Origin: Gemmataceae bacterium
GTDB lineage: Bacteria > Planctomycetota > Planctomycetia > Gemmatales > Gemmataceae
Length of the DNA: 60,332 bases
Direction: 5' to 3'
Assembly (NCBI GenBank): GCA_009692005.1
Contig: SHZZ01000018.1
Location: 1 to 60,332, forward strand
Positions 26,294 to 45,661 of the stretch are shown here, one piece after another. Position 1 is the first letter of the stretch, and each line of letters starts with the position of its first letter. The translations under genes and the position numbers were made by a program. Below the pieces are notes generated by a model. It had not been told where the DNA came from. It saw only the letters and a list, made by a program, of their open reading frames with translations, and did not search any database.

Positions 26294-27292
26294 TTACAAA
26301 CCGGCGGGGGCGGGAAAGATCTGCACCCGCGAAAACTTCTTCACATGTTCCGCCAGCCGTTCTTTCAGCTTCTCCGCAAAATATTCCTTGACCTCGCCCT
26401 GAACCTCTTCAAACTTCACTTCCTTCCCCAATTTCCTTTCCGTGGTCAGGATCAGGTGGAAGCCAAACTGAGTTTTCACCGGTTCACTCACCTGATACAC
26501 CGACTGGGTAAAGGCTGTCTTGGAGAAATTCTCCACCATGTCGCCATCGCGGCCGAACCAGCCGACATCGCCCCCCTGGTCCTTCGATGGGCATTCGGAT
26601 TTCTTCCTGGCCACATTGGCAAAGGCTTCGTCCACCAGCGCTGTCCGCGTTTTCTCCTTGATCAAACTGTCGGTCCCTGGAAGCAGCTTGGCCAACCCGC
26701 CATTCACCTCGTCATCAATCGTCTTTTTGAGGGAGGCAATTTGCCCGCGGACTTTTTCCTCGCCCCCAGCTTCCGCCGCGTTCATGTTCAACAAAATATG
26801 CCTGGCGCGCACGCTGGAGCCATCAAACACTTCCTTGTTTTGTTGAAAGGTTTCCTTCAAGACTTTGTCATTGGCCTGGGAATCCACAAACTTTTCCCAG
26901 CGCACCTCCGCCGTGATATGTTCCTTTAATTCCGCCTCGCTAAGTTTTAACTCCTCAAGCATCTTGGTAAATTCTTTCCCCTGCTTGATCACTTCCTCCC
27001 TCATTTGCCCCAGGCGCTTGTCCACCTCGCCGGGTTCCACTGCCACTTTTTGCTGTTGCAAATATTGATCCACCAGCATGTTTTCGACCAGGTGACTGAC
27101 TAACTCTTTCCTGGCCTGGGCTTTTTTCTCAGGAGGCACGCGGTCCAGGCCGCGCTGAACCGCGGTTTCATAAAGCGGCTTGTCATTCACCAGGGCTGCA
27201 ACGCCGGGAGGGGCTTTTTGCACCCCGGCGTCCTGCGCGCCAACCCAGCCAATGGCCAACAGAAAAAACGCAATTGCTGGCATCCTTGCCAT
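26294..27292 (-). CDS. Secreted parvulin-type peptidyl-prolyl isomerase (SurA/PrsA-like)
   Basis: 332 residues. A signal peptide (MARMPAIAFFLLAIGWVGAQ) directs export. Residues about 30-175 form a SurA-type chaperone domain (basic, helical), and about 185-300 a parvulin domain (VRARHILL, GGDVGWFGRDGDMVENF, FGFHLI). It should help fold envelope proteins. The start at 27292 is fixed by the signal peptide and by AAGGAG 6 nt upstream; the frame's earlier ATG at 27370 is not supported. Confidence 0.9.
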   Translation of the reverse strand: MARMPAIAFFLLAIGWVGAQDAGVQKAPPGVAALVNDKPLYETAVQRGLDRVPPEKKAQARKELVSHLVENMLVDQYLQQQKVAVEPGEVDKRLGQMREEVIKQGKEFTKMLEELKLSEAELKEHITAEVRWEKFVDSQANDKVLKETFQQNKEVFDGSSVRARHILLNMNAAEAGGEEKVRGQIASLKKTIDDEVNGGLAKLLPGTDSLIKEKTRTALVDEAFANVARKKSECPSKDQGGDVGWFGRDGDMVENFSKTAFTQSVYQVSEPVKTQFGFHLILTTERKLGKEVKFEEVQGEVKEYFAEKLKERLAEHVKKFSRVQIFPAPAGL

Positions 27293-27452
27293 AAGAAACT
27301 CCTTGTACTTGAAACAAGCGCCCTGCGAAAAATAATGAGGGAAGGGACTATACTCCAAGGCAGATGGCAATTGCGATAGGACTTGGAATTACGCCCCTGG
27401 ATGCGAATTCCCCATTGCCTCTTGTCGTCCCGCTTTGCCCAGCCAACCAGAT

Positions 27453-29513: not shown

Positions 29514-32500
29514 CTATTCAATGATGGTCGAGTACAAAACCACCGGATCTTTTTTCACATCAAACCCTGGCCAAGGGCCGGGATTCCCGCGGCTGATCAC
29601 CTTGCAGCCGGTCGCATGGCTCTTGAAGAAGGTGGCCGAATAAACCGGCGCCATCGCCGTGCCCGTGTTCTTCAAGGTTACGACCTCCTCATTATCCGTG
29701 TCCGGATCGAAGGTCAAAACCATGCCATCCTGGAATTGAAAGGGCCTGCCGGTCTGGTTCGCCCCCGTCCCCAAAAAGCCTGAAATCGTAACTGGCGTGG
29801 TGCCCGTTACGGTTACCGCCTGGTTGGAAACGGTCTGGAAGGCCACCATTTTGGAGCGGTCGACAATGGCGAACATCCGGTGGCGGATGTTGGTCCCCTC
29901 GCTGCGGCCGATTTCCCCGCCCATTTTCACCGGCTTTACCGTGTCGTCGGTCACTTCGAAATACCCGGTGGTCAGCCAAACGGCGAAGCAATTACTGCGG
30001 GTGGTGACATTATTAAGGATCTTGGTAAGCAATTCCTTTTTCTGATAGGAATCAGCGCGGTTGAGATCCAGGATCGGCTGGCCATTCGCCCCCTTGCGCA
30101 AAAGAGAGTTGTTCAATCCGCGGGGGCCGGGGGTCCAATCGTCGTTGCCATTCGCCCTGCCCTGGCCAAAACCCCAGAAGGGTTGGTCGCCATACGCGGG
30201 GGATCCACCGGGCGAGCGCGAGACTATCAGGTTATCGTAAATGGCATCCACCTCGGCTTCGGTGAAGTTGTTGAGGCCATTGGGATCGCACACAGCTTTA
30301 AAAACTTCTCGTTCCCAGATGCCATTGATGTTCACCGGCCCAATATTACGGCCATTCTCGGCCATGCCATATTGCCGATTCTTGGTGTTGGCCACTTCCA
30401 GGAAGCGGTAAAGGCGGGTGGATTCATCCATCCACGGGGCCTTGTGGCCGATGACCTGGCCGGCGGTGTCTTGCACCGGGGTGTTGAAACGCTGCGTAAC
30501 TTCGCTCGGCTTGCAACCAGCGACCTGGGTGATTTCCATGCCATTAATCACCTCGCGGTCCATGTGGACCAGCCAGGGAAAAGGCATAAGCAACACCTTG
30601 TCACCCTGGTTGACGCCCGTTTCGGTTTTCCAGCTTCCATTGTGGCGGAAGAAGGTATGCTGAGGCTGGCCGGGGATGGGCTGCGAAATCGCTTTGCTAT
30701 TAATGATATCCCATTCCCGCAACCCCTCCTGGTAGTCATTGGCCATATCGGTGTTCGGAACCGCGGGGATATCGGTATAAGCAATCGTGGTTCCGGCAAA
30801 GGGCTGGCTGCGGCCCATGCTGGTGCGAATAGGCACATTCTTCGTCGTATCCGGGTCGGGCAGATTCCTGGCCATTGATTCTTTCAAGGGGTCGGCATCG
30901 ACCTTTCTTACATCGTCGCTGGCATTGGTGATGCCATCATTCACCTTGAGGCCGTTCATCACATCCACGGTGATATAGGGGTTGTAACCCTGGCCTTGCG
31001 GATTGGCCTGCGGCGGGCGGTGCGGGTCGGCCAGGCGGCGCAAGACGATAGTATGGTTCATGGCTTTTACCGACGCCGTCAGGGTAACACCGTTGGCAAA
31101 TCGGGCGTCGGCCACTGGGATCCTGGTTGTAAAACCAGGTGTGCGCAGGCTGGCCAATTGTTCCGCCGGGGTGTTGATATTGTTGGGCGGATCATTGTAG
31201 GGGAAAGGATGCACTCCCTTTCCCGGGAACTCAACTGTGGGGCCAACGACAAAGAAGCCGTTGTAATTGGCAACCGAGGCCACGGGAGGGGTTGCCATGG
31301 GATCAGCGGGGCGAACCACGCTGCCGGAGTAAGAGGCTCCCAGGGGGTTAACCAAACGGCAACCCTGGTTTTCATATTCGGCAATGTCCAGGAATTTGCC
31401 TGGTCCAACATCGGCGGCATTGGCCCGCAAGGGGAATTTGGTCGCACCATCGGGCTTGAAATTGGTCAGGCTGGCAATGGGCGCCAAGCTTAACCGGCCT
31501 TCCACATTTTCCTGGTTAAACAAAGCTGGATCGGGGCGGTCGAGAACAAAAATCTGGTAGACCGGTGAATCATTGGGATTGGCATTAGGGTCCTGTTCCA
31601 AAACCGCGATTTTATGGTCATTGCTGGGGTCCAGGTCGATTCCCCCCTGGGGCATGGGGTTGATCAATTCGATCCAGGTGTGGAGATGGTATGGCAGGGT
31701 CGCTTTCTTGGTCTTGTCCACCACATTGGTGAATGGATCCATGGGGTCGTTGACTATTTCTGCATAGCCCTCGTTCAAAACCAGGGTCGGCAGTTCAAAG
31801 CCATAGACTCTTTCATCCAGGCTGGCGTCGCGGTTCCCAGTGGGAGTGGCATTATCCAGCGCCGGCTCCAACGGATGCGGCGGTTTCATATTGGGATCGA
31901 ATTTCCAGGTGAAGGTGGTCATGACATTATCGGGATCAACGAAATCGACCATGTTGGCCGCAAGCTGGGCCAGGTAGCGGTTGGCTTCGTACTCGGCGTT
32001 GCCTGTGCTAATGGGGAAGCCATTCCCCGACATGTCCCTGGCGCCCGTCACTTTCACTAGCACTTGAAAAACTTCCTGAGCGAACATTTGCCTTTCGTAA
32101 TTGGCAACCTGAGCGCCCGCGGTGGGGTTATTGGCATAGGTGGGATATTTGGTGTTCCAGCCGCCGCCATCGGCCATGGCGTTGTACCGGCCCCCTGTCC
32201 CGCCATTGCTCGCCAAATTTCCGGAGAAAATGGCGCGGTTCACAGGCGGGTATTCCATCATTTTGCGATTGAGGTTGACGCGCCCAACGGCAGCCATGGC
32301 CTGCTCGACTGTGCCACTGGGCACCCCGGCAAAGGCAATATCCCCTCCAGCCGTGGGAAAATTAGCTCCCGCGACTTTTTGATACCCGCCCGGGGTGGCG
32401 CCAACATAAACCGGCAACCCAGGTCGATTCAAATCCGCACTCACCGTGGTGACCCGGCTGCGGGCAGCAATCTTGCTGATATCCATGGGGTTATAAGTAC

Positions 32501-34016
32501 CCAGGGAGTTGCCCAGAACCTGCGTGAGCAGAGAGGCTTCCGGGTAGTTGGCGGTGGAATTCCAGCGCAAAAGGGTGGCAGTATCCTTGGCGGGGAAGGC
32601 CCGATTTCCGGAAGCGACCGCGCCGCTGCCCGGCCGCTGCGGATTGAATACGGAAGAGTGGGTTAAAGTACCCGAGGACAGGCCTCCGAAATTAGTTTCA
32701 TAGGGAATGCCGTTCCCAAAATTCCCCAAAGGAAAAGTGGGAAAGGACTGGAATCCTTTTACATCCGGGCGATTGAGGGTAGGAAGCACCAGCGGCCCTA
32801 TCGGCTGGCCCATGGTCAAGGTGTCGGCGGAACCGTTGAAATCCACCTGACTATAAGGCATGACTTTGTGCCCGCCGGTTAAAGGGGGCCCAACCGGCGC
32901 TCGGTTCGTATTGTTGAACCTCCCGGGGAGCTGAACCGTGCCAGAAGTTGGCGAACTGGCAATAAGTTTCTGGAACTCCGTGGCATCGACAACTTTTCCA
33001 GCATTGATTTCCCAGGCGCCCCAGCCCTGGTTGCTGCCATGCGCCCCGGCCGCGCCCATGACATTGCCGGCCACATTCACATTGATGCGGCTGTCCAGTT
33101 CAAGAATCAGGGGTGCAAGCATGACTTTGTATTTTCGGCCATCGGGGGCGGTGAAAACCGGCGAGCCGACATCGATCCATATGCTGTCGTTGCCACCCGG
33201 GTAGCCTTCCAGGTTTTTGACATCGAAGCCATCCATTTCCGGATAGGGAAAGCCACCATGTTCCATGGGCCTGGGCCGTAGAGAAAAATATTTACCCTGG
33301 GGGTTAGTCCAGTTGGGGTTGGGCAAAGCATTGCCTGGCCAACTGGTCATGCCGGTGGCGCCAAAAAGGTAATCTCGGTGAAAGGACGGAATTACTCTGG
33401 AACCATCTGGGCTTAGCCAGGCCAGGTAAAGATGGTTCTGATCCGGGTAGGTGTAAGGGGGATTCCAGCTTGCGGACAAAGTTGCCCTGGTGTTGACAGC
33501 GGATCGCTGGCCCCGCTCGGGGTCGAAAAGCGGCCCGCCAGAAAAATAAGTGTGGTTGGCAATCTTCCACTCCTCAACATCTGGCCCCCCAGGCAGGGGG
33601 ACTTTCTTGTTTAATTTACCAATCCCGGTAAAGGGTTTATCATTAAAGGCGTAGGGAGTGTCATTCCAGGAAAAGGCGTTCCTGGCCAAGCTGTGTCCGC
33701 GCAAGGCGCTGTAGATGGAATCAGGTGTGGGATTAGTCGTGGCGCCAGTGGTCAAATTAATATCCATATCCGGCTGGTCATAAAGAAAGCGTTCGAGAAA
33801 GAAATTGAGCATGAATTGCGGTGGAAGATCGACCATGCGCACGGGATCCTGGCGGAGATCCTGGCCATTAATATCATCCAAACTTTGCCGCAACTGCGAG
33901 TCGGCATAAAGGAGGTAAGTGACCCCCATGATGGTGAAGAGGGCCAGAAAGGCCACGATGACCAGGAGGATCATTCCCCGCCGTTTGTCGGTTTGACTTT
34001 TTAGCAACATGGCCAC
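29514..34016 (-). CDS. Giant GspK/PilX-like pseudopilin or tip protein
   Basis: 1500 residues. The N-terminus (KRRGMILLVIVAFLALFTIMGVTYLLY) is a prepilin-like basic leader and hydrophobic helix without the Glu at position 5, as is usual for GspK. The protein is last in a gspE-F-G-H-I-J order, which is the GspK place. GspK proteins are usually about 300-350 residues; this one is more than four times longer, with a large, Asn/Pro/Gly-rich, globular-looking region and no transmembrane helix after the first. The far C-terminus contains a Val/Thr-rich beta stretch (AVTVTGTTPVTISGFLG). It may cap the pseudopilus and carry binding modules. No repeat unit was obvious by eye. Confidence 0.72.
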   Translation of the reverse strand: MAMLLKSQTDKRRGMILLVIVAFLALFTIMGVTYLLYADSQLRQSLDDINGQDLRQDPVRMVDLPPQFMLNFFLERFLYDQPDMDINLTTGATTNPTPDSIYSALRGHSLARNAFSWNDTPYAFNDKPFTGIGKLNKKVPLPGGPDVEEWKIANHTYFSGGPLFDPERGQRSAVNTRATLSASWNPPYTYPDQNHLYLAWLSPDGSRVIPSFHRDYLFGATGMTSWPGNALPNPNWTNPQGKYFSLRPRPMEHGGFPYPEMDGFDVKNLEGYPGGNDSIWIDVGSPVFTAPDGRKYKVMLAPLILELDSRINVNVAGNVMGAAGAHGSNQGWGAWEINAGKVVDATEFQKLIASSPTSGTVQLPGRFNNTNRAPVGPPLTGGHKVMPYSQVDFNGSADTLTMGQPIGPLVLPTLNRPDVKGFQSFPTFPLGNFGNGIPYETNFGGLSSGTLTHSSVFNPQRPGSGAVASGNRAFPAKDTATLLRWNSTANYPEASLLTQVLGNSLGTYNPMDISKIAARSRVTTVSADLNRPGLPVYVGATPGGYQKVAGANFPTAGGDIAFAGVPSGTVEQAMAAVGRVNLNRKMMEYPPVNRAIFSGNLASNGGTGGRYNAMADGGGWNTKYPTYANNPTAGAQVANYERQMFAQEVFQVLVKVTGARDMSGNGFPISTGNAEYEANRYLAQLAANMVDFVDPDNVMTTFTWKFDPNMKPPHPLEPALDNATPTGNRDASLDERVYGFELPTLVLNEGYAEIVNDPMDPFTNVVDKTKKATLPYHLHTWIELINPMPQGGIDLDPSNDHKIAVLEQDPNANPNDSPVYQIFVLDRPDPALFNQENVEGRLSLAPIASLTNFKPDGATKFPLRANAADVGPGKFLDIAEYENQGCRLVNPLGASYSGSVVRPADPMATPPVASVANYNGFFVVGPTVEFPGKGVHPFPYNDPPNNINTPAEQLASLRTPGFTTRIPVADARFANGVTLTASVKAMNHTIVLRRLADPHRPPQANPQGQGYNPYITVDVMNGLKVNDGITNASDDVRKVDADPLKESMARNLPDPDTTKNVPIRTSMGRSQPFAGTTIAYTDIPAVPNTDMANDYQEGLREWDIINSKAISQPIPGQPQHTFFRHNGSWKTETGVNQGDKVLLMPFPWLVHMDREVINGMEITQVAGCKPSEVTQRFNTPVQDTAGQVIGHKAPWMDESTRLYRFLEVANTKNRQYGMAENGRNIGPVNINGIWEREVFKAVCDPNGLNNFTEAEVDAIYDNLIVSRSPGGSPAYGDQPFWGFGQGRANGNDDWTPGPRGLNNSLLRKGANGQPILDLNRADSYQKKELLTKILNNVTTRSNCFAVWLTTGYFEVTDDTVKPVKMGGEIGRSEGTNIRHRMFAIVDRSKMVAFQTVSNQAVTVTGTTPVTISGFLGTGANQTGRPFQFQDGMVLTFDPDTDNEEVVTLKNTGTAMAPVYSATFFKSHATGCKVISRGNPGPWPGFDVKKDPVVLYSTIIE

Positions 34017-34052: not shown

Positions 34053-35408
34053 TTAAAGTCTTTGAATCAACTTGAATTCCCTGGCCTTGCCTGATTTGGC
34101 ATCCCAGATCCGCAAGGAAACCTGGATGGCGTTAATGCGCAAGCCCTTGCCTTTACCCCAGACGGGAATTCGATTGTTTCCCGTGCCGCTGCTCGGCTGC
34201 CAATTTCCGCTAGAGTCATCCCCCAAGTCGTAGGTCGGGAGTGGGGCCCCGGGGGAATCGGTGGTCCAAGTGTCAAAAACGAAACGCCCAGCGGGGGTGG
34301 TTTGATAACCAGTATTTGGCGATGGGTTATAGGGTGCATTTCCAAGAATAGATCGCAGGGGAAGAAAGTCAAGTTTGTCATCTGAAAGAATCCGGACATC
34401 GAAAGAGATCACATCGGGCATGAGCAAATCGGTGTAACTGCCAGGATGCTTTTGGCCCGCGACATAGGTAGTGCTTTCATAAGAAGTAAACATGGAGGCT
34501 CCCGAAGGGAGCCCCAAGTGGCTTGAAATCCTGTCCCCTTGCCTTTTCCAGGGCACGGTTAAATCCATCGGTGAATTAAAACGGATATCACCCTTTTCCG
34601 ACCTCCAACTGAACTCGTACAAATCGCCCTTATGCCTGGCGTTGTAAGACACCGCGTTGGCAGCAGACCACTTGTTGGCATCATCAGTGGCAGGCAAGAC
34701 AAGTTTCACTTGCCGGTAGAGGTCGCAAAGCGTTGTGCCATTGGCGCTATTGCCGTTTAACCTCAGGAAGTAGGCGACCTCCGCCCATTGCGAGTGCACC
34801 ATTCCCTGGGTGAAATCGAAGCGCATGGGATTCAAGGGAACCATGAGTGGATAATTTGTCTGTGTGGAGGCGTTATTGGAAAAGATTGGGCCCAGGCCCG
34901 CTTGATAAGTAACCAATTTTCCCGTGGGTACCTTGGTGGGAAAGCTGGAAGTGAAAAAATCCTCCGGGTTGTTCCCTGCCTGGCGGACAGTAAAAGCCAG
35001 CATATGGTTGGCATTTAAGGCAGGCTTGGCATCCACAGCGGACCGATTATAAGTCACGCCATCCACCGAACCTTCTGTTGCTGTGTAAGCTTGGTCCTGC
35101 CAGATCATGAAATAACCTGCCTTTGGCGGGCCATTCATCCAGAAATCCGCCTCACTCAACCTGCGATTCCCGTCAAAATGGTAGGCGCCCAAATCCCGTT
35201 GCATGATGTTGAGAACCGGCCTGGCCCGATCGAGAATTTCCCCCACCCCCTTGATCCCCTGAAGACAAGTGGTGGCAATGACGAAGGCCTGGCTCATGAT
35301 GGAAAGCATGAAAATAATCAAGGCCATGGCCACCAGGAGTTCCACCAGGGTAAAACCCGCCTGGCGCCTGTTGGCAATCATAACTTTTCCGGCTTGAGTT
35401 CCTGACAT
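34053..35408 (-). CDS. Pseudopilin, GspJ/PilW-like
   Basis: 451 residues. A type IV prepilin leader ends in RQAG before FTLVELLVAMALIIFML, with the conserved Glu5. A long N-terminal helix and then a large globular domain follow; the length exceeds typical GspJ (about 200). Position between the GspI-like and GspK-like genes fits the J slot. It should be a minor pseudopilin at the tip. Cleavage needs a prepilin peptidase that is not encoded in the window. Confidence 0.82.
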   Translation of the reverse strand: MSGTQAGKVMIANRRQAGFTLVELLVAMALIIFMLSIMSQAFVIATTCLQGIKGVGEILDRARPVLNIMQRDLGAYHFDGNRRLSEADFWMNGPPKAGYFMIWQDQAYTATEGSVDGVTYNRSAVDAKPALNANHMLAFTVRQAGNNPEDFFTSSFPTKVPTGKLVTYQAGLGPIFSNNASTQTNYPLMVPLNPMRFDFTQGMVHSQWAEVAYFLRLNGNSANGTTLCDLYRQVKLVLPATDDANKWSAANAVSYNARHKGDLYEFSWRSEKGDIRFNSPMDLTVPWKRQGDRISSHLGLPSGASMFTSYESTTYVAGQKHPGSYTDLLMPDVISFDVRILSDDKLDFLPLRSILGNAPYNPSPNTGYQTTPAGRFVFDTWTTDSPGAPLPTYDLGDDSSGNWQPSSGTGNNRIPVWGKGKGLRINAIQVSLRIWDAKSGKAREFKLIQRL

Positions 35409-35419
35409 TTTTTCCTTCC

Positions 35420-36307
35420 TTACGAACCGACCAACACCACTCGGAGGACATCCTTGAGGAAATACACCCGTTTGAGGGTTGTGGTCATGGACGGGCTGAT
35501 TTCAATTTCAACATTATCGGAGGCTCCTGGTCCCTCATGCACCGCCCTGACTTCAAAAAACTCCACATAATTGGGATTGCCGCCGGGGGTATCCAAACCC
35601 ATCAGCCATTGCCTCGGTTTTAATTGCACCGAGGAGTTTCCGGTTACTCTGAAAGTGGTAGGGGAGGATATTTGTCCTGGATCAACATTAAAAGAGGTGT
35701 AATCGGTTGGACTTTGGCTGCGGCCCTTAAAGATCAAAATATGGCGTCGAATTTTCCCGGGAGCAGACATGGGAAGCGGCTTCATAAAAAAATGCGCCAA
35801 AGTAAACTTTCCCTCGCGATCCACCGCCACCGTCAACCCATCGTCATCCACATTCCCCAACCCTTGCTTGTTCAAAACCACATCACTATTCAGGGTGAAA
35901 AACCGACCATTGATGTCCGCCTCCGTCGCTTGGCCAACAATTGTGGGAATTTTTGCATTGGCAACATTCGCCAGGGAAGGTAACCCGGCCACGCCTGCCG
36001 CTTGATCCAGAAAAAGGAAAATTGGGCTGTCATTGTTACCCGGAGCAGTCCACCCTGGGGGAAGGGGGCTGGTCGGGGGGACCGTTAATTTGCCCACATA
36101 ATTGTCGGACATCCAATCGACGCCGTCATGCATGGCCCGGGCGTTGACCAATCCCTCGGCAATTTGCGCGTTGGCAATTGCGCGCCCCATCATGTCGGCG
36201 GCTGCGGGAAAAATCGCCAGCACTCCCAGCATGCCTATGGCCATGATGAACATCGATACCAAAACTTCCATTAGTGTCATGCCTTTTCTTTTCATGGTCA
36301 TCCTCAC
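35420..36307 (-). CDS. Pseudopilin, GspI/PilV-like
   Basis: 295 residues. The leader KRKG is followed by MTLMEVLVSMFIMAIGMLGVLAIFPAA; Met replaces the usual Phe at +1 and Glu5 is kept, both typical of GspI/PilV proteins. A globular domain follows. It overlaps the GspH-like gene by 4 nt (ATGA) and starts the I-J-K end of the operon. It is expected to be a minor pseudopilin that starts tip assembly. Confidence 0.82.
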   Translation of the reverse strand: MRMTMKRKGMTLMEVLVSMFIMAIGMLGVLAIFPAAADMMGRAIANAQIAEGLVNARAMHDGVDWMSDNYVGKLTVPPTSPLPPGWTAPGNNDSPIFLFLDQAAGVAGLPSLANVANAKIPTIVGQATEADINGRFFTLNSDVVLNKQGLGNVDDDGLTVAVDREGKFTLAHFFMKPLPMSAPGKIRRHILIFKGRSQSPTDYTSFNVDPGQISSPTTFRVTGNSSVQLKPRQWLMGLDTPGGNPNYVEFFEVRAVHEGPGASDNVEIEISPSMTTTLKRVYFLKDVLRVVLVGS

Positions 36308-37182
36308 AATCCTTCTACTCGCGGATCACGGGCAAAGAGAAACACATCAGTTGCCGGTCCGGGAGAAAACACGCCCACCGCCCCGGTGCGCTTGCGGATG
36401 GCGATAATGGCGTCACTGTTGTAATCGCTGGATCCAATCTTGTGCATCCACAAGAAAACATCCTGGTTGTTCCCGATGTTGGCGTTGCCTCCGGCCATGT
36501 CAAATAAGATGTCGTAATTGGATCCAATAACCGGGGGAAGCTGGCTGCGCGGTGTCCCCGACGGGGTCAACATGATTTCATAACCGATTGGCAACTCCAG
36601 GGGCTCCTCCCCTGGCACCGGCCGGGCTTGCCTGATGATCCGGTAATCCCTCAGCATATTTTTTATGGGTGAGGCTGGGTCATCCAGATTGGCGCCGATT
36701 TGAAGGATCTTTCCACTGGCGCCATAGGCGGAAAAATAAGTCGCCTGCCGGGTGGAATTCACCACCAGATAATCCCAGGGCATGACCATGGCTTCAAAAT
36801 CGCCACCCCAAACATCAGTGACGAAATTAGCCAGGTAAACCCCGGCGGCGGGTTTGGTGATATTGAGATTCCCCAGCGAATAGCCGGTCAAATCAGCAGG
36901 CTTTTGCACCAGCAGCAATTTCTGGAAGTTGCCGGTGTTGACATCCGGAATCAAGCGCACGCCGGTCACCAAATGGTCCCGGCGGGCCTTTTGCCGACCG
37001 CTAACCACCATCATTTGCACCCGGTTGGCGCCCATGGCCAGGGCGTTATCATCACTGGCCTTTGGGTAAAAAACCGCGGTAATCGTGGCCAGGAGAACGA
37101 TAATCCCCATGGCCACCAATAACTCCACCAGGGTGAAACCCCGGCGAAATCGCCCAAGCATTGTCCAAGTCAACTGGCGCAT
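36304..37182 (-). CDS. Pseudopilin, GspH-like
   Basis: 292 residues. Leader RFRRG is followed by FTLVELLVAMGIIVLLATITAVF (Glu5 kept). The next helix (NRVQMMVVSGRQKARRDHLVTGVRLI) resembles the GspH domain, in which Arg-containing helices precede a beta-rich domain. It overlaps the GspI-like gene by 4 nt. The role is a minor pseudopilin joining the shaft to the tip; the leader is a few residues longer than usual (MRQLTWTMLGRFRRG). Confidence 0.82.
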   Translation of the reverse strand: MRQLTWTMLGRFRRGFTLVELLVAMGIIVLLATITAVFYPKASDDNALAMGANRVQMMVVSGRQKARRDHLVTGVRLIPDVNTGNFQKLLLVQKPADLTGYSLGNLNITKPAAGVYLANFVTDVWGGDFEAMVMPWDYLVVNSTRQATYFSAYGASGKILQIGANLDDPASPIKNMLRDYRIIRQARPVPGEEPLELPIGYEIMLTPSGTPRSQLPPVIGSNYDILFDMAGGNANIGNNQDVFLWMHKIGSSDYNSDAIIAIRKRTGAVGVFSPGPATDVFLFARDPRVEGL

Positions 37183-37195
37183 GCATCCCCGCTGG

Positions 37196-37945
37196 TTAAT
37201 AAATCAACTCCAGGGAAACCGTACCGGCAACCGCCGCATCATCGGCCGTGGCCTGGTCCTTGTACTTCAATTTGAATTGAATCGGTTTGCCATTGCCATC
37301 GGCTATAAAGCGGATCCCATTTTCTGTTGTTACGGCCCCGCCAAGGTCCTCAGCCTTGAGCCCATCTGGATTGGCTTCCAACGCCAGCAATAGACAAGAG
37401 GAATTTTGCATTTCAATTGTGCCATTCGTTGGCGACCCCATGGAGGTCCACCCTTGCTTGACTCCAGACGATACCGCCCTTTCCGCAATACTTAATTTAG
37501 TGTTGAAGGCGTTGTTAATCCTGGCCTTGTAGCCAATGTTGACCGAGGGGTTAAAATCAAAGGTAACCGTTCCGCTAACATCGCTGAACCTCGTGGGAAA
37601 GGCCCGGCCTATCATGAGGTCCACATAAACCAGTTCATTACGCCGACTTGGCTCCCTTAAACCAACTAGCGAGGGCGAAGGGTTTTGCAAAAAGTCCCCC
37701 GCATTGGTGAGATTGGTTTTCGTGGTTCCCGTCAGACTGGGATAATCCAGATGCGCCTGGTTGCGTATGTTTTTCAGAACCCGTTCGATGGCGCTTTGCA
37801 ACAACTTGACGGTTTTCTCCGTGGAGGCGTTTTGCTGCACACCCAACATCCGCACAATCACGCCCACGCTAATGGCCGCCAGGATGGCAATGATGGATAT
37901 TACCACCAGGAGTTCAACCAGGGTAAACCCGCGCCGTTTTCGCAT
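37196..37945 (-). CDS. Type IV pilin-like/pseudopilin protein
   Basis: 249 residues. A short leader MRKRRG precedes FTLVELLVVISIIAILAAISVGV, a near-perfect N-methylation motif with Glu5. The globular part has no disulfide-loop Cys pair of note. The sequence resembles prepilins of the GspG class, but it is longer than usual GspG (about 150) and is second in the row. It may be a second major subunit or a GspH-type subunit. Confidence 0.8.
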   Translation of the reverse strand: MRKRRGFTLVELLVVISIIAILAAISVGVIVRMLGVQQNASTEKTVKLLQSAIERVLKNIRNQAHLDYPSLTGTTKTNLTNAGDFLQNPSPSLVGLREPSRRNELVYVDLMIGRAFPTRFSDVSGTVTFDFNPSVNIGYKARINNAFNTKLSIAERAVSSGVKQGWTSMGSPTNGTIEMQNSSCLLLALEANPDGLKAEDLGGAVTTENGIRFIADGNGKPIQFKLKYKDQATADDAAVAGTVSLELIY

Positions 37946-37960: not shown

Positions 37961-38806
37961 TTAGGTGGCTGGCAACCCTAATTTTCTCGGGGAAAAATTA
38001 GACATATCGTCCGACCCGGGGTCATTCAACCCATACCCTGTATCCGGATTCCACTGGCTGTCGCCAGCGCCAAAAGCCTTGTCCTTTCCGGAACTAATGA
38101 TTTGGAATGTTTTGGGGTTCGTGTAGACAACAGTGGCCACCGGCCTCCGGTAGGGCTTCACGCCTCCAAGGGCAGGGTTTTTATTGGAAAAATAAGCGTA
38201 ATCATGGTTTTCAAAATAGACATAATCCCCACCCAGCGGATCCCGAAGCGTTAGGTGATTGGCGCTTTTAGCTATGCGGTTGGCATCAAATTCATAATAA
38301 GGCCCCTTGCGTTTGGTCGCCTTCAGGTCGCTGGGATCTTGCCGACTGGTGGAAAAACCCTGAAAAAAGACCTTCCCGTTGGCATCGGTATTGGGAATCC
38401 CGCCCAAAAAGAAAACCAGCGCTTCCATCCCTTCCAAAGTCACCGAGTTGGGAGTGGCCGCCCCCAGCCAATCCACATTGCCGGCGGGATCACCCGAAAC
38501 GGATTTCCCAAACATTTTGGTAATGATGTTCCAATCTGCTGGATTGTTCGTCTTAAAAGCCGCCACGCTTTTATAAAGGGTAATTTTGCAGGGCAGGTAC
38601 TCGACATTTCCCAAATCGAGCTTGGCAGCGGAAAGGCCCGCTTCCAACTGCCCGATCTCTGTGCGCACGATGACATCGTCGGCGCGCTTCAACACCGCCA
38701 TGACACCCGCCAGCAGCAAGCCCGCCAGCACGCCAATGATGGCAATTACCACCAAGAGTTCCACCAGGGTGAAAGCGGGACGGGGGACTGGTCTGATCCT
38801 ATTCAT
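37961..38806 (-). CDS. Major pseudopilin candidate, GspG-like
   Basis: 281 residues. After a basic leader (MNRIRPVPRPA) comes FTLVELLVVIAIIGVLAGLLLAG, with Glu5 and a helix typical of GspG. The residue before the cleavage point is Ala rather than Gly, an unusual but tolerated change. It follows gspF directly, the normal place of the major pseudopilin gspG. Later sequence includes DPLGGDYVYFEN, similar in place to the calcium-loop region of GspG. Confidence 0.82.
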   Translation of the reverse strand: MNRIRPVPRPAFTLVELLVVIAIIGVLAGLLLAGVMAVLKRADDVIVRTEIGQLEAGLSAAKLDLGNVEYLPCKITLYKSVAAFKTNNPADWNIITKMFGKSVSGDPAGNVDWLGAATPNSVTLEGMEALVFFLGGIPNTDANGKVFFQGFSTSRQDPSDLKATKRKGPYYEFDANRIAKSANHLTLRDPLGGDYVYFENHDYAYFSNKNPALGGVKPYRRPVATVVYTNPKTFQIISSGKDKAFGAGDSQWNPDTGYGLNDPGSDDMSNFSPRKLGLPAT

Positions 38807-38826: not shown

Positions 38827-40062
38827 TTATTTACTCAAACCTTCCAACATGCCGATCAACGGCATGAACAGGGCGATAACGATGGTGCCGATCACCAAGC
38901 CCAGGAACACGATCATGATCGGTTCCAACAAGCTGATCAGGCTTTCCACCATGACATTGACTTCTTCATCGTAAATGTCGGCGATCTTGTACAACATGCT
39001 GTCGAGGTCGCCGGTCTCTTCGCCGACATCGACCATGTTGACGACCATGTCGTCGACCAGTCGGCTTTCCTTCAAGGGTTGGGAAAGGGTGTCGCCTTCG
39101 CGAATGGATTCATAGACGCGCTGGTACATGCGCTCGAAGACCATGTTGGTGCAGGTGTCGCGGACGATGGTGAGAGCTTCGAGAATGGGCACGCCGGACG
39201 CCACCAGCGTGCCGAGGGTGCGGGTGCTGCGCGCGATGGAAGTTTTCTCGATCAAGGGTCCGACAATGGGAATCCAGAGGTAGACGCGGTCAATTACATA
39301 GGCGCCGCTTTTGTTCATGCGCAACAACTTCATCATCAAAAGGAAAGTCATCGGTATGAGAGGTATGACATACCAGTAGACGGACACCCAGCGGGAGGTG
39401 GCCATGAGGGCCGTGGTCAGGTCTGGCAGCTTCATGCCGAAGTCTTTGAAGATCTTCTCGAACTTCGGGATGATGTAAATCATGATGAAGCAGAGGATGG
39501 AGACGGCGACGAGGATAACGACGCAAGGATAGATCATGGCTCCAGTGATGCGGCGCTTAAGGCTCTGGGACTTTTCCTTGAAGTCTGCCAGGCGCTGGAG
39601 AATGATTTCCAGGGCGCCGCCCGCCTCGCCCGCTTTTACCATGTTGACATACAGGCGGTCGAAGCATTTGGGGTGCTTGGCGAAGGCCTCGCTCAAGGTG
39701 GAGCCGGATTCGACATCCTCGACCACATCCATGACAGCGTTTTTCAAGATGCCGGGCTTCATCTGCCCCTCGAGGATGCGCAAACTTCTCAAGATGGGTA
39801 GACCGGCGTCTTGCAGGGTGGAAAATTGCCGGGTGAAAGTGCAGAGTTTCTTCATTGAAACTCCGCCAATGGAAAAAGTCCGCTTCTTCTTCTTGCCTTT
39901 TTTCTTTTCCTTGCCTTTTTTCGCCGCGAACTCCGTTATCTTCGTAACGAAGTAACCCATCTGGCGGATCTTTTGTTGGGCTTCTTCTTCGGTGGCGGCA
40001 TCGACGGAGTCCTTGACTTCCGTGCCTGTGGTGTCCATGGCCTCGAACTTATAAGTTGGCAT
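38827..40062 (-). CDS. gspF: Type II secretion/type IV pilus inner-membrane platform protein
   Basis: 411 residues, the usual GspF/PilC length. The N-terminus (MPTYKFEAMDTTGTEV) and the DAATEEEAQQKIRQMGYFV segment are typical. Two GspF domains each carry conserved cytoplasmic helices (FTRQFSTLQDAGLPILRSLRI and STRTLGTLVASGVPILEAL), with three membrane helices (about 165-190, 220-240, 370-400). It links the ATPase to the pseudopilin at the inner membrane. A Lys-rich insert at about 45-65 is unusual. Confidence 0.93.
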   Translation of the reverse strand: MPTYKFEAMDTTGTEVKDSVDAATEEEAQQKIRQMGYFVTKITEFAAKKGKEKKKGKKKKRTFSIGGVSMKKLCTFTRQFSTLQDAGLPILRSLRILEGQMKPGILKNAVMDVVEDVESGSTLSEAFAKHPKCFDRLYVNMVKAGEAGGALEIILQRLADFKEKSQSLKRRITGAMIYPCVVILVAVSILCFIMIYIIPKFEKIFKDFGMKLPDLTTALMATSRWVSVYWYVIPLIPMTFLLMMKLLRMNKSGAYVIDRVYLWIPIVGPLIEKTSIARSTRTLGTLVASGVPILEALTIVRDTCTNMVFERMYQRVYESIREGDTLSQPLKESRLVDDMVVNMVDVGEETGDLDSMLYKIADIYDEEVNVMVESLISLLEPIMIVFLGLVIGTIVIALFMPLIGMLEGLSK

Positions 40063-40090: not shown

Positions 40091-42067
40091 TTAATCGTCA
40101 ACCACGGTCTCGCGGACCACCTCTTCCAGAGAAGTCAGTCCATCGTAAATGGCGCTCAACCCCGATTCGCGCAGGGTATGCATGCCCATGCGCAGGCAGG
40201 CATTGCGCAGTTCATCGGTGGAGCCTTCGGTGGAAATCAAGTCGCGCAGTTCATCGTTCATGACCACGAATTCATGGATCGCCAGGCGGCCCTTGTAGCC
40301 GGTGTTGCTGCAAATGTCGCAGCCTTTGCCATAGAAGAACTTCTTGCCCTGAATCATCTCGGTGGTGAGGTTGAGTTCGAGAAGTTGATCCGGGCCAGGG
40401 TTGAATTCCTCGCGGCAATTGACGCAAATGCGCCGCACCAGACGCTGCGCCAGAATCCCTTCCACCGTGGCAGTGATCAGGTAAGAAGGCAAGCCCATGT
40501 CGCGCAGTCGGGTGATGGTGCTGGGGGCGTCGTTGGTGTGCAGGGTGCTGAAGACGATGTGGCCAGTGAGGGAAGCCTGGACAGCGATCTCGGCAGTTTC
40601 CAAATCGCGAATCTCGCCCACGAGAATCTTGTCCGGGTCCTGGCGCAAGATGCTTCGCAGCGCCGCCGCGAATGTCAGGCCTATCTCGTGGTTGATCGGA
40701 CACTGCACGATCCCTTCGATTTCGTATTCGACCGGGTCTTCCGTGGTGATGATCTTGTCTTCAACCACATTGAGTTCGTTGAGGGCGGAATACAGAGTGG
40801 TGGTCTTGCCGGAACCGGTCGGCCCGGTGACCAGGATGATGCCGTTGGGCTTGAGAATCAGTTCGCGGAAGGAGGCCAGGATTTTCGGGTCCATGCCCAG
40901 TTTATTAATGTCCAGGGCCACGACCGTGCGATCGAGGAGCCGAATAACCGCGCTTTCACCAAAGAGGGTGGGCAAGGTGCTGACGCGCATGTCGATGCGG
41001 TTGCCGCCCACGGTCAATTCGATGCGGCCGTCCTGAGGCATGCGGCGCTCGGCGATGTCGAGGTTGGCCATGACCTTGATGCGGCTGGAGATGGCGCTGG
41101 CCAGGTAGCGCGGCGGCGCCGGCAATTCAAACAGCACCCCATCGTGCTTGTAGCGCACTTTGTATTCTTCTTCAAACGGCTCGAAGTGAATATCGCTGGC
41201 CTTGTCGCGGATGGCCATGAGGAAAACCATGTTCAAATAGCGTCGCACCGGCGCCGACTCCGCCTGCTCCATCAAGGTTTCCAAATCGATGCTGACTTCG
41301 GCCTTGCGCCTGCCCCGGGTATCGTCGCCTTCCATCTGCTGGATCAGGTCGGCAATGCTCTCTTCTTTTCCGGCGTAGCATTTCTTCTGGGTTTCCTCGA
41401 ACGCGCTTTGAGGAACCAGCAAGGTGACCACATCGTTCAAGCCCAGCAAATTGCGCAAGTCGTCGGCGACGGTGATGTTGTTGGGGTCGGCGATGGCCAC
41501 CGTAAGGATGCGATCCTTGACCGATAGCGGAATTACCTTGTAAAGGCTGGCCATGGTCGCCGGCACCAGGAGAATGGCATCGGGCTGCGGCTTGATTTCG
41601 TTCAAGTTGGCAATTTTGAGATTGCTTTGCTGGGCCAGCGCTTCCACCTGCTGGTCTTCGTTGATGAGCCCGCGGGATATAGCAACCTGGCCAATCTGCT
41701 TGCCGCTGCTCTTGGCTTCTTCCAAAAGATCCCAAAGCTGCTGTTCATCAATGAGGCCTTTTTCGACGAGGATCTGGCCGACTTTTTTCTTACCGCCCGG
41801 CTTGGTTTTAACCTCGGGGGGCCTTTTGGCTACTGGCGCGGTTTTTTGCACCGGTTTGCTTTCCGGCGCTTTCCCACCTGGGCCGGCCGGAGCAGGCTTT
41901 ACGGCAGGATTGGCCTTGGCAACCGGAGCGCCAGGCGCCACGGGGCGGGCCGCCTGCCCTGCAGGCGTGGCAGGACGAACTACCGCCGCGCCCGCCGGTT
42001 TTTGCGGCACGGGGGCCTTGGTCGCGGGGCCCGATCCCGGGTTCGGATTGTTCAACGGCGTACTCAT
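40091..42067 (-). CDS. gspE: GspE/PilB-type assembly ATPase (first copy)
   Basis: 658 residues. An N-terminal 75-residue Pro/Ala/Lys-rich disordered tail is unusual. A MshEN/T2SE N-terminal domain (VGQILVEKGLIDEQQLW) follows, then the ATPase core with Walker A GPTGSGKTTTLY, the Asp box, Walker B (ILVGEIRDLETAEIA) and the His box. Four Cys (CVNC, CDIC) bind zinc, as in GspE/PilB. It should drive pseudopilus assembly. It follows pilT and precedes gspF. Confidence 0.94.
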   Translation of the reverse strand: MSTPLNNPNPGSGPATKAPVPQKPAGAAVVRPATPAGQAARPVAPGAPVAKANPAVKPAPAGPGGKAPESKPVQKTAPVAKRPPEVKTKPGGKKKVGQILVEKGLIDEQQLWDLLEEAKSSGKQIGQVAISRGLINEDQQVEALAQQSNLKIANLNEIKPQPDAILLVPATMASLYKVIPLSVKDRILTVAIADPNNITVADDLRNLLGLNDVVTLLVPQSAFEETQKKCYAGKEESIADLIQQMEGDDTRGRRKAEVSIDLETLMEQAESAPVRRYLNMVFLMAIRDKASDIHFEPFEEEYKVRYKHDGVLFELPAPPRYLASAISSRIKVMANLDIAERRMPQDGRIELTVGGNRIDMRVSTLPTLFGESAVIRLLDRTVVALDINKLGMDPKILASFRELILKPNGIILVTGPTGSGKTTTLYSALNELNVVEDKIITTEDPVEYEIEGIVQCPINHEIGLTFAAALRSILRQDPDKILVGEIRDLETAEIAVQASLTGHIVFSTLHTNDAPSTITRLRDMGLPSYLITATVEGILAQRLVRRICVNCREEFNPGPDQLLELNLTTEMIQGKKFFYGKGCDICSNTGYKGRLAIHEFVVMNDELRDLISTEGSTDELRNACLRMGMHTLRESGLSAIYDGLTSLEEVVRETVVDD

Positions 42068-42094: not shown

Positions 42095-43264
42095 TTAACG
42101 CTTCATCCCTCGGCGCGGCGGTGCTTTATCCTCTTCACCTTCGTCTTCCTCCTCTTCATCATCTTCAATGTCATCGTCTTCCTCTGAGAAATTTCCCTCC
42201 TCCGCCTGCTTGATTTTTTCGGCCAGCTCCGCCGGCTTATTGCACCGGCCCAAGACTTCTTCCTTGTCCACCGTGCCCGAGCGCCACAACTTGAACAAGC
42301 TTTCATCCATCAGGAACATGCCGTGCTTGCGCCCAGTTTGAATGGAGGAATCGATGCGATAGGTTTTGTTCTCGCGGATCAGATTGGCCACGGCGGGCGT
42401 GACCACCATCATTTCATAGGCGGCGACCATGCCCTCCGGCTTTTTCGGCAGCAAAGTTTGCGAAAGCACGCCGATCAGCGCGGTGGAAAGCTGCGTGCGG
42501 ATCTGATCCTGTTGCTCCTGCGGAAACACATCGATGATACGGTTGACCGTGCTGGAAGCGCCGTTGGTGTGCAGGGTGCCGAACACCACATGCCCCGTTT
42601 CCGCCGCTTCAATGGCGGCGTGGATGGTTTCCAAATCGCGCATTTCACCCACGAGAATGATGTCGGGGTCCATGCGCAGTGCGCGGCGAATACCCTCTTT
42701 AAAACTGGGCACATCAACGCCAATTTCCCGCTGGTTAAATGTCGACTTCTGGTGTTTGTGGAAGTACTCGATCGGATCTTCCAGAGTGATCACATGCTTG
42801 TCGTAATTCATGTTGATAAAGTTCAACATGCTGGCCAGCGAGGTGGTTTTGCCGGAACCGGTCGGGCCGGTCACCAGGAGGAGTCCGCGCGGGCGGGTGA
42901 TCAGGCGCTTGATGGCGTCCGGCATGCCCATCTGCTCGAAGGAGATGAAACCGGAGGGAATTCGCCGCATGACCATGCCGATATGTCCGCGCTGGCGGAA
43001 AACCGCCACGCGGAAGCGCGTGCCCCCAAGGAACTCAATGGCGAAGTCGGTGCCGCCCACCTCTTGCAATTCCTGCTGGCAGCGGTCTGGCGTGATGCTC
43101 TTCATCAGGCCCACGGTGTCGTCAGAATCCAACACCTTGGTTTCCAGTTTCTTCATTCGGCCATGATGACGAATAACCGGCGGCTGACCGGTGGTAATGT
43201 GTAAATCGTTCGCTTTTAATTGAATGACTGTGGCAAGGAGTTTGTCGATCGCTATGGTGGCCAC
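42095..43264 (-). CDS. pilT: PilT-type retraction ATPase
   Basis: 389 residues. The N-terminus (ANDLHITTGQPPVIRHHGRMKKL) and Walker A (GPTGSGKTTSLASML) are characteristic of PilT, and the AGNLxxxQ-type region reads RKHGMFLMDESL. Walker B lies in DIILVGEMRDLETI. The last about 50 residues are very acidic (runs of Glu/Asp), unusual for PilT. A retraction ATPase is normal in type IV pili and absent from typical type II secretion, so this gene gives the locus a pilus character. A 680-nt gap precedes it. Confidence 0.93.
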   Translation of the reverse strand: MATIAIDKLLATVIQLKANDLHITTGQPPVIRHHGRMKKLETKVLDSDDTVGLMKSITPDRCQQELQEVGGTDFAIEFLGGTRFRVAVFRQRGHIGMVMRRIPSGFISFEQMGMPDAIKRLITRPRGLLLVTGPTGSGKTTSLASMLNFINMNYDKHVITLEDPIEYFHKHQKSTFNQREIGVDVPSFKEGIRRALRMDPDIILVGEMRDLETIHAAIEAAETGHVVFGTLHTNGASSTVNRIIDVFPQEQQDQIRTQLSTALIGVLSQTLLPKKPEGMVAAYEMMVVTPAVANLIRENKTYRIDSSIQTGRKHGMFLMDESLFKLWRSGTVDKEEVLGRCNKPAELAEKIKQAEEGNFSEEDDDIEDDEEEEDEGEEDKAPPRRGMKR

Positions 43265-43942: not shown

Positions 43943-45661
43943 TCAATGATCTAAAGAACTTTCATGGTGACAAATGCTAAGCACCTCTTCAAGAGTAGTA
44001 ATTCCCCTAAGTGCTTTGTTCAAACCATCTTCCAGCAGTGTTCTCATGCCCCTGGCCCGTGCATGTTTTCTTAATTCAGGGGCCGGGGCTCCTTTAAAAG
44101 TCAATTCTCGGATTTTGCCATCCATTTTTAGCATTTCATAAATCCCCTTGCGTCCGCGATAGCCTGTCCGGCTGCAATGGGAACAGCCTTTACCCTTCAT
44201 AAACTTCCCTGTTTTGATTTGTTCGGGGGAAAGGCCAGAGCCTTTGATTTCCGCCGAATTTGGGGTATAAGGCTCCCGACATTTTGGACAAATGGTCCTG
44301 ACAAGACGCTGTGCCATGATGGCGATAATGGAAGAAGCAACCAAGAAAGGCTGCACGCCGATGTCAATCATGCGTGTAATAGCCGAGGGCGCATCGTTCG
44401 TATGTAGTGTGCTGAAAACCAAGTGTCCAGTCAAGGAAGCCTGAATAGCGATTTCCGCGGTTTCATGATCGCGGATTTCCCCCACCAAAATGATATTTGG
44501 CGCCTGACGGAGCATGGCCCGGATGATGCGGGCGAAATCGAGCCCAATGTTATGCTTGACCTCCACCTGGTTGATGCCTGGAAGGTAATATTCAACCGGG
44601 TCTTCCGCGGTAATGATTTTTCGCTCAGTTGTATTCAATTCATTGAGGGCTGAATAAAGGGTTGTGGTCTTTCCAGAACCGGTGGGGCCAGTTACCAGAA
44701 AGATCCCGTTGGGCCGTTTAATCAGTTGCTGGAAACGGGCAAAATCATCGTCAGCAAAGCCCAGGTCACGGATGCTCACTTTGATGTTGGCCCGGTCTAA
44801 AATACGCATGACCGCCGATTGCCCATGGACCGACGGCAAGATGCTCAGTCGCAAATCGTAATCTTTTCCGGCAATGTTGGTTTTGATGCGACCGTCTTGG
44901 GGTCGGCGTTTTTCAGAAATATCGACGGAAGCCATGATTTTTATACGGGAAAGGATGGGCAAGAGATAACGATGGGGAGGGTTGTCCCTCTCCGTCAGAA
45001 TGCCGTCCACCCGGTAGCGAATGCGCACCCTTTCCTTAAAGGGCTCCACATGAATATCGCTGGCACGCATTTCCACCCCGTCCTGAATCATTTTGTTCAC
45101 CAGCCGTATGATGGCGCCATCCCCTTCCCCTGAAATGGCTGCCGAGCGGACCTGCTCTGCCTGGGCAAACTCGTTGGCCATTTCTGAAAAATCGACCAGT
45201 TGCTCCGTCGATTCCAGTTCGTCCTCGGGGTAGACCTTTTCCAAAAGGTCCTTGATCTGTTCCTGGGCGGCGACCACCGGGATGATTTCCTTATTGAGGA
45301 TGAACCCCAGTTTTTGAATCAAGTTGAAATCGGTAGGGTCGGCGATCGCCATCCGGATAAACGACTGATCATCGGAAAGAGAAAGAGGCACCACCAGTTG
45401 ATCCCGGGCTTGCGAGGCGGGAAGCAAGGCGGCAATTTCGGGCGCAACGGTCATCTCGGACAGGTCGGCAAATTCATAGTTATTAAATTCCGCCACTGCC
45501 TTGGCAATCTGCAACGGCGTGGCGTATTCCAGTTTGATCAGCGCATCTTGAAGGCTGCCTCCCCCAGATTGCATCAAACCCCGGGCTTCTTCCAACTGTC
45601 CCTGGCTTAATGCCTGGCTTTTCACCAAGTTATCGCCATAGTCTCCTCGCGCCTTGGCCAT
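43943..45661 (-). CDS. GspE/PilB-type assembly ATPase (second copy)
   Basis: 572 residues, without the long disordered tail of the other copy. N-terminal MshEN-like domain (QLEEARGLMQSGGGSLQDALIKL), then the ATPase core with Walker A GPTGSGKTTTLY, Walker B ILVGEIRDHETAEIA and the zinc-binding CPKC and CSHC. The core is about as similar to the first copy as paralogues usually are. It is separated from pilT by 680 nt, so it may be regulated separately and could drive another fibre or another condition. Confidence 0.92.
   Translation of the reverse strand: MAKARGDYGDNLVKSQALSQGQLEEARGLMQSGGGSLQDALIKLEYATPLQIAKAVAEFNNYEFADLSEMTVAPEIAALLPASQARDQLVVPLSLSDDQSFIRMAIADPTDFNLIQKLGFILNKEIIPVVAAQEQIKDLLEKVYPEDELESTEQLVDFSEMANEFAQAEQVRSAAISGEGDGAIIRLVNKMIQDGVEMRASDIHVEPFKERVRIRYRVDGILTERDNPPHRYLLPILSRIKIMASVDISEKRRPQDGRIKTNIAGKDYDLRLSILPSVHGQSAVMRILDRANIKVSIRDLGFADDDFARFQQLIKRPNGIFLVTGPTGSGKTTTLYSALNELNTTERKIITAEDPVEYYLPGINQVEVKHNIGLDFARIIRAMLRQAPNIILVGEIRDHETAEIAIQASLTGHLVFSTLHTNDAPSAITRMIDIGVQPFLVASSIIAIMAQRLVRTICPKCREPYTPNSAEIKGSGLSPEQIKTGKFMKGKGCSHCSRTGYRGRKGIYEMLKMDGKIRELTFKGAPAPELRKHARARGMRTLLEDGLNKALRGITTLEEVLSICHHESSLDH

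Follow-up and report, generated by a model that had tools for sequence, protein, structure and literature searches.

What kind of protein closes the pseudopilin operon of a Gemmataceae bacterium, and what may its unusual bulk be for? The window analysed here is the whole stretch of 60,332 nucleotides of this planctomycete (GenBank assembly GCA_009692005.1, contig SHZZ01000018.1, positions 1 to 60,332), and the gene in question fills 29514-34016 on the minus strand with an open frame of 1500 codons that starts with GTG and has no internal stop. We favour, at a probability of roughly 65%, the reading that the protein is a GspK-type minor pilin of unusual size, belongs to a type IV-pilus-like machine and serves as a one-piece tip adhesin or receptor. 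That it is a GspK-type protein with a GspK core is almost certain from hidden Markov models (HMMs), profile alignments and structure models; homology places it probably at the tip of the fibre, and the chances stand about even, by analogy with known tip proteins, that the added blocks form a ligand-binding head.

29514..34016, minus strand: giant GspK-type minor (pseudo)pilin, whole gene, 1500 amino acids (aa) (GTG start, homologues, synteny, HMMs, structure models)

The N-terminus is of the prepilin type and reads VAMLLKSQTDKRRG/MILLVIVAFLALFTIMGVTYLLYADSQ, with a short, basic leader of 14 residues that ends in RRG and places Gly at -1, followed by the hydrophobic segment MILLVIVAFLALFTIMGV in which Val stands in place of Glu at +5. 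Gly at -1 recurred in 28 of 32 homologues, and position +5 was V, I or L in 30 of the 32. A prepilin-type N-terminus without Glu at +5 is the signature of GspK, and the gene also takes the GspK place at the end of the H-I-J-K pseudopilin order; the five pseudopilins encoded upstream (281, 249, 292, 295 and 451 aa) all carry Glu at +5.

The resemblance to GspK beyond the N-terminal helix was assessed by a reciprocal, decoy-controlled ranking. An HMM of residues 1200-1395 of the protein and its large homologues (the giants), built without the N-terminal helix, ranked GspKs first among 595 open reading frames (ORFs) of type II secretion system (T2SS) loci, while the reverse GspK HMM ranked the giants first among 1369 ORFs with collinear N-terminal, INxNTA and TTRS matches; the chance that the top eight are all of one kind is about 1e-14 to 1e-15. 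Apart from these, four bridging homologues of 786-947 aa from other classes were examined, two of which (L128 and L129) have ATPases, PilC and pilins upstream. The intermediates matched the GspK HMM at E 6e-14 to 1e-10 and the HMMs of the giants at best at 3.5e-14, and hhalign joined them to the giants (99.9%, E 5e-33, 797 columns) as well as to GspK (97%, over the C-terminal 130 columns). Homology to accepted GspKs was thereby established through the reciprocal ranking and the bridging intermediates.

AlphaFold2 models were computed from alignments of 33 and 38 sequences for the homologue L081, a piece 38% identical to the 1500-aa protein and lacking the first 61 residues of its own ORF, and for residues 301-1500 of the giant protein. 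The former reached a predicted local distance difference test score (pLDDT) of 83.9 and a predicted template modelling score (pTM) of 0.88, and the latter was moderate (pLDDT 68.5, pTM 0.80). In VIA-align, the two best PDB matches of the 301-1500 model were GspK/XcpX chains that both spanned the whole piece, 6utu_C at Z 8.8 (182 aa, 3.3 A) and 9a1f_T at Z 8.2, the next and unrelated match standing at 5.6. For the L081 model GspK chains took ranks 2-5 (Z 5.9-6.3), and 3ci0_K was aligned over 231 of its 280 residues, scattered along model residues 8 to 1176. The matches of both models support a GspK fold, i.e. a pilin beta-sheet with an inserted alpha-domain. VIA hits to GH2 immunoglobulin (Ig) domains and to pyruvate-kinase and phage-tail structures were considered as clues to function and set aside as common folds. 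A preliminary description of the locus had placed the protein at the end of a pseudopilin operon and called it GspK by gene order and N-terminus; the ORF and gene order bear this out, on the minus strand, and HMM, profile and structural evidence now supports the core, whose lack in a predicted structure that description had named as its refutation.

Several results weigh against this reading. The 1500-aa protein gave no match in Pfam, NCBIfam or PDB sequences, PF03934 (T2SSK) and the other curated GspK models did not hit it at E 0.1, and 18 family members were without a hit to these models at E 1. Direct hhalign comparison of the giants with the ordinary GspKs (479-606 aa) of a second GspE/GspF/GspK cluster in related genomes was clear at the N-terminus only, the values beyond it being 59%, 4% and 3%. 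The model of the giant protein is of modest confidence and is without residues 1-300, the VIA Z of the L081 model is under 8, and Foldseek with the whole L081 model found no significant PDB hit, with GspK at E 1-4 only. No known binding domain was identified in the giant protein either. The weak hhalign matches were nonetheless collinear, pairing 'PGKINLNTI..EVF.AL' of the giants with 'PARININTAP.VLAAL' of GspK, and TTRSNVFAVWVTVGFFE with ITTRSQVYRVQSVGYFE. As the protein is homologous to GspK but unmatched by the curated models, we term it GspK-type rather than GspK.

The pieces of the protein are given below; their boundaries are approximate, taken from alignments and models, and identities are mean pairwise values among homologues.

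33975..34016, minus strand: prepilin-type leader, residues 1-14, ending ...RRG (sequence; Gly at -1)
33882..33974, minus strand: N-terminal hydrophobic helix alpha1, residues 15-45, Val at +5 (46% identity)
33225..33881, minus strand: insert, residues 46-264, with family motifs SALRGHSL, YTYPD, PSFHR and LRPRP (conservation map; 35% identity, length 141-313)
33060..33224, minus strand: GspK core beta segment, residues 265-319, LILELDSRINVNVAGN, resembling GspK DESGKINLN (hhalign via intermediates; 51% identity)
32100..33059, minus strand: insert, residues 320-639, the most variable in length at 237-658 aa (conservation map; low-confidence model)
31797..32099, minus strand: first helical unit of the GspK alpha-domain, residues 640-740, reading RQMFAQEVFQ...LAQLAANMVDFVDPDN (alignments, model; 44% identity)
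30837..31796, minus strand: inserted Ig-like beta-sandwich, residues 741-1060, with VIA hits to 4q1z and GH2 Ig domains (AlphaFold2 model of homologue; 29% identity)
30585..30836, minus strand: connecting segment, residues 1061-1144 (identity and length comparison of homologues)
30342..30584, minus strand: GspK 'sLEELLxVxG'-type segment DREVINGMEITQVAG, residues 1145-1225 (profile alignment, conservation map)
29850..30341, minus strand: GspK second helical (T2SSK-type) unit GPVNINGIWEREVFKAV and core strands TTRSNCFAVWLTTGYFEV and RMFAIVDRS, residues 1226-1389 (profiles, HMMs, VIA)
29577..29849, minus strand: inserted small beta-barrel, residues 1390-1480, between the penultimate and last strands (model of the giant protein); 10-170 aa long in homologues, some of which lack it or have a short form
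29517..29576, minus strand: last core strand DPVVLYSTIIE, residues 1481-1500, resembling GspK RIIYFRDLTEL (hhalign, models)

The core pieces are mostly 38-51% identical, with the ELLxV segment (35%) and the last strand (31%) as exceptions, and the inserts are 25-35% identical and variable in length. The additional mass is inserted within the GspK fold as about four fast-changing blocks and is not appended as a tail; enlargement by added modules had been proposed from the start, and alignments and models now show where the modules sit. A display head would be expected to show this pattern of a conserved carrier and fast-changing inserts, and a spacer would look similar. Motifs such as LVLNE...WIEL had prompted a lamin-tail domain (LTD, PF00932) for residues 741-1060; no Pfam match was found there at E 1, and the region is described simply as Ig-like, a fold that such a domain would fit.

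In known systems GspK caps the GspI/J tip and has an alpha-domain inserted in its sheet, and modular pilins present added modules at pilus tips (PMC8179133). The giant protein shares with GspK/XcpX (3ci0_K, 5vtm_X, 6utu_C) the missing Glu at +5, the place at the end of the H-I-J-K order, the fold (Z 5.9-8.8) and the equal order of INLN strand, two helical units, TTRS strand and last strand. It differs in its 1500 aa against about 300-600, in at least four inserts, in a machine that includes PilT and PilM, and in going unrecognised by Pfam and NCBIfam models. The modular pilins PilB and PilC of Streptococcus sanguinis and CofB likewise consist of a pilin carrier with modules argued to be located at the tip, but their module is in most cases a recognised domain grafted on at the C-terminus, and the most extreme multi-domain case named has 860 aa (PMC8179133), whereas in the giants, of up to 2899 aa, the modules lie inside the GspK core and are unrecognised by sequence. 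The giant protein is a modular pilin with several modules inserted in its carrier, and as such a new variant. One insertion point is shared with ComZ of Thermus thermophilus, a proposed tip receptor for DNA with a GspK-like fold and a beta-solenoid inserted between the last two strands (PMC6561018); ComZ is much smaller, has this single insert of another fold and is without the alpha-domain. PilY1/PilC, the tip adhesin of type IVa pili, offers an analogy as a large protein presented at the pilus tip, but it is not a pilin, and the giant would unite carrier and head in one polypeptide.

A further likeness in length was found to the Verru_Chthon cassette protein A (TIGR02600, a model of 1296 positions), which by its name belongs to a cassette with pilin-like proteins B, C and D. 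Homologues of the giant matched this model weakly at its N-terminus and at C-terminal positions 1181-1257. Its cut-off of 332.3 bits was reached in 0 of 21 and 0 of 392 genomes, where there were terminal partial matches only, and membership was rejected; by sequence, protein A may be the verrucomicrobial counterpart of the giants. The openly available literature yielded no account of a giant GspK-type protein in planctomycetes and no paper with the Verru_Chthon names.

Homologous ORFs were present in 35 of 41 related genomes by protein search, with complete frames of about 1300-2350 aa, and most loci long enough to show synteny retained the order ATPase-PilT-PilB-PilC-pilins-J-K. In an even sample of the phylum the giant family occurred in all Planctomycetia but one, with weaker matches in other classes. 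We counted 32 giants of 1278-2351 aa and one of 2899 aa; carriers include Zavarzinella formosa DSM 19928, Planctomycetes bacterium Pan216 and Alienimonas chondri. As giants occur in nearly all Planctomycetia sampled, the size is a trait of the whole class and not a local oddity, and the subunit is a conserved, oversized GspK-type protein. Uniqueness to the source genome was ruled out by these homologues, and gene fusion or a sequencing artefact by the recurrence of single ORFs of 1278-2899 aa in conserved synteny. An ordinary GspK has roughly 330 aa, against which 1500 aa is over four times the usual size, the figure given in the preliminary description; related planctomycetes have GspKs of a second system with 479-606 aa (median about 546), and 1500 aa is 2.7 times as long as these. 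The length comparison with orthologues proposed there showed that they are giant as well. In the locus of the largest homologue (L131 7981-18601, G316) a 627-aa pilin-like gene comes after K and not before it, and at two loci (L104 and L114) the homologue is divided between two frames, which may be assembly frameshift errors or decayed copies.

The machine served by this subunit was judged from the operon and from the rest of the source genome. On the minus strand the gene order runs PilB/GspE-like (572 aa), PilT-like (389 aa), PilB/GspE-like (658 aa), PilC/GspF (411 aa), the five pseudopilins and the giant gene. Intergenic gaps from PilT through the giant gene are -4 to +36 base pairs (bp); the giant gene closes the operon, the next gene (HU-like) begins 218 bp downstream, and no terminator or promoter was detected around the 3' end.

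43943..45661 (45661-43943), minus strand: second PilB/GspE-type ATPase, 678 bp upstream of pilT (family models)
42095..43264, minus strand: PilT/PilU-family retraction ATPase (above NCBIfam cut-off)
40091..42067, minus strand: PilB/GspE-type extension ATPase with MshEN domain (family models)
38827..40062, minus strand: PilC/GspF inner-membrane platform protein (family models)
37961..38806, minus strand: GspG-like pseudopilin, 281 aa (GspG the best family, below cut-off)
37196..37945, minus strand: GspG/PilA-like pseudopilin, 249 aa (family models, N-terminus)
36304..37182, minus strand: GspH/FimU-like pseudopilin, 292 aa (family models, N-terminus)
35420..36307, minus strand: GspI/PilV-like pseudopilin, 295 aa (family models, N-terminus)
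34053..35408, minus strand: GspJ/PilW-like pseudopilin, 451 aa (family models, N-terminus)

The type IVa pilus parts PilB, PilT, PilC, PilM, secretin and prepilin peptidase were all found in the source genome, the last three outside the operon as a PilM-containing ORF of 910 aa, an ORF of 1789 aa with a secretin domain and prepilin peptidases; the PilN model PF05137 found no match in that genome. A T2SS would be marked by a dedicated GspD, by GspC, GspL and GspM (which were not searched for) and by having no retraction ATPase, and the operon includes one of the PilT family. The source genome has two secretin loci only, one near Tad-type GspF genes and the other the 1789-aa ORF, which is a candidate for the outer-membrane pore of the pilus. 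As a PilT retraction ATPase stands in the operon and a PilM gene elsewhere, a fibre or pilus fits better than secretion, and of the earlier wording that the tip could define what the fibre 'binds or secretes' the second half is the poorer fit. The gene content points to a retractable, type IV pilus-like filament with GspHIJK-like minor pilins rather than to a T2SS.

In the reading that we favour, prepilin peptidase would remove the 14-residue leader, processing and export being expected from homology, and alpha1 without Glu at +5 would let K sit first and cap the filament above the GspI- and GspJ-like subunits encoded just upstream. The GspK core, split into pieces across residues 1 to 1500, would act as the carrier from which blocks 46-264, 320-639, 741-1060 and 1390-1480 project outward as a large head. 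The head may contact a surface, a polymer or a substrate, and extension and retraction driven by PilB and PilT would present it and then pull the bound target.

Secretion is nonetheless an alternative that must be weighed, in which the protein would be the tip pseudopilin of a T2SS, its head picking out exoproteins in the unusually wide periplasm of planctomycetes and driving them out through the secretin. The closest solved fold is GspK, the GspE model also scores both extension ATPases highly, and no canonical GspK besides the giant protein was found in the source genome; PF03934 hits there (C84, C22, C70, C53, C32) were at chance level, and C53 on inspection was not a GspK cluster. Against these stand two type IV pilus features, the PilT/PilU-family ATPase above cut-off in the operon and PilM in the genome, and a separate GspE/GspF/GspK cluster with an ordinary-sized GspK in related genomes (L062-L073), not found in the source genome, so that in those relatives the secretion role is already taken. 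We regard secretion as unlikely. Another explanation is that the extra mass is structural and binds no ligand: big spacers under little constraint would fill out or brace the wide envelope of planctomycetes. The inserts evolve fast and vary in length, parts of the giant-protein model are of low confidence, and J and K lengths rise together (Spearman 0.60 within giants, shared ancestry uncorrected), all of which would suit a spacer, but most inserts are well folded in the model of the homologue (pLDDT 83.9) and several insert motifs are nearly invariant. This reading, too, we regard as unlikely.

A competence tip pilin like Thermus ComZ, with the inserts as a receptor in DNA uptake, appears the most improbable. 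ComZ, too, has a GspK-type fold, and its large insert separates the last two strands (PMC6561018), the position that the beta-barrel takes here; PilT is present, and residues 321-639 of the giant protein are basic, with an isoelectric point (pI) of 9.7. The basic charge of block 320-639 is however unconserved, being positive in only 52% of 33 homologues, the whole protein is acidic (pI 5.77), and no DNA-binding domain was found.

The giant gene gives a single handle on what planctomycete fibres bind, including whether these fibres have a part in the unexplained dextran binding and macromolecule uptake. Pili-like fibres of 12 nm that bind dextran have been described in Planctopirus and Gemmata (PMC5394234). 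It is very unlikely, though conceivable, that Planctomycetia swapped a separate PilY1-type adhesin for the giant tip pilin and that its head is the receptor of these fibres; if true, the head would be the capture end of planctomycetal macromolecule uptake. PilY1 (PF05567) had no match in 41 genomes, and the control genomes gave no match either. The class-wide GspK-type subunit, probably a tip protein, is several times bigger than known GspKs, and the GspK core tolerates at least four separate insertions; the bridging forms of 786-947 aa may record how the enlargement happened. As family models miss giant GspKs, planctomycetal pili are probably under-annotated.

Some further observations concern the neighbouring and dispersed genes. 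The GspJ-like neighbour (34053-35408) is also enlarged, with 451 aa here and up to 737 in relatives, and J length increases with K length (Spearman 0.72 over 26 loci, 0.60 within giants, kinship uncorrected). Two PilB/GspE-type ATPases with MshEN (43943-45661 and 40091-42067) flank pilT, and both are retained in most homologous loci. The 1789-aa ORF (L120 7114-12483, G000:C84) carries the secretin domain at its C-terminus, behind a very long N-terminal part, and secretin ORFs of similar length also occur in relatives. The PilM-type domain lies in an ORF of 910 aa whose tail is rich in Gly and Pro (L134 5053-7785, G000:C14); the next ORF (L134 7822-9783, 653 aa) resembles it in style and has no Pfam match. 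PilN/PilO equivalents may be encoded here. A further GspE-like ATPase with two adjoining GspF-like ORFs (L121 2486-6121, G000:C31) is apparently another small type IV filament system, and several prepilin-like proteins dispersed over the source genome (L061, L074, L075) are possible further clients of prepilin peptidase. Beyond the downstream end of the operon, the same strand encodes a SurA-like PPIC-type peptidyl-prolyl isomerase (26294-27370), a possible periplasmic folding helper.

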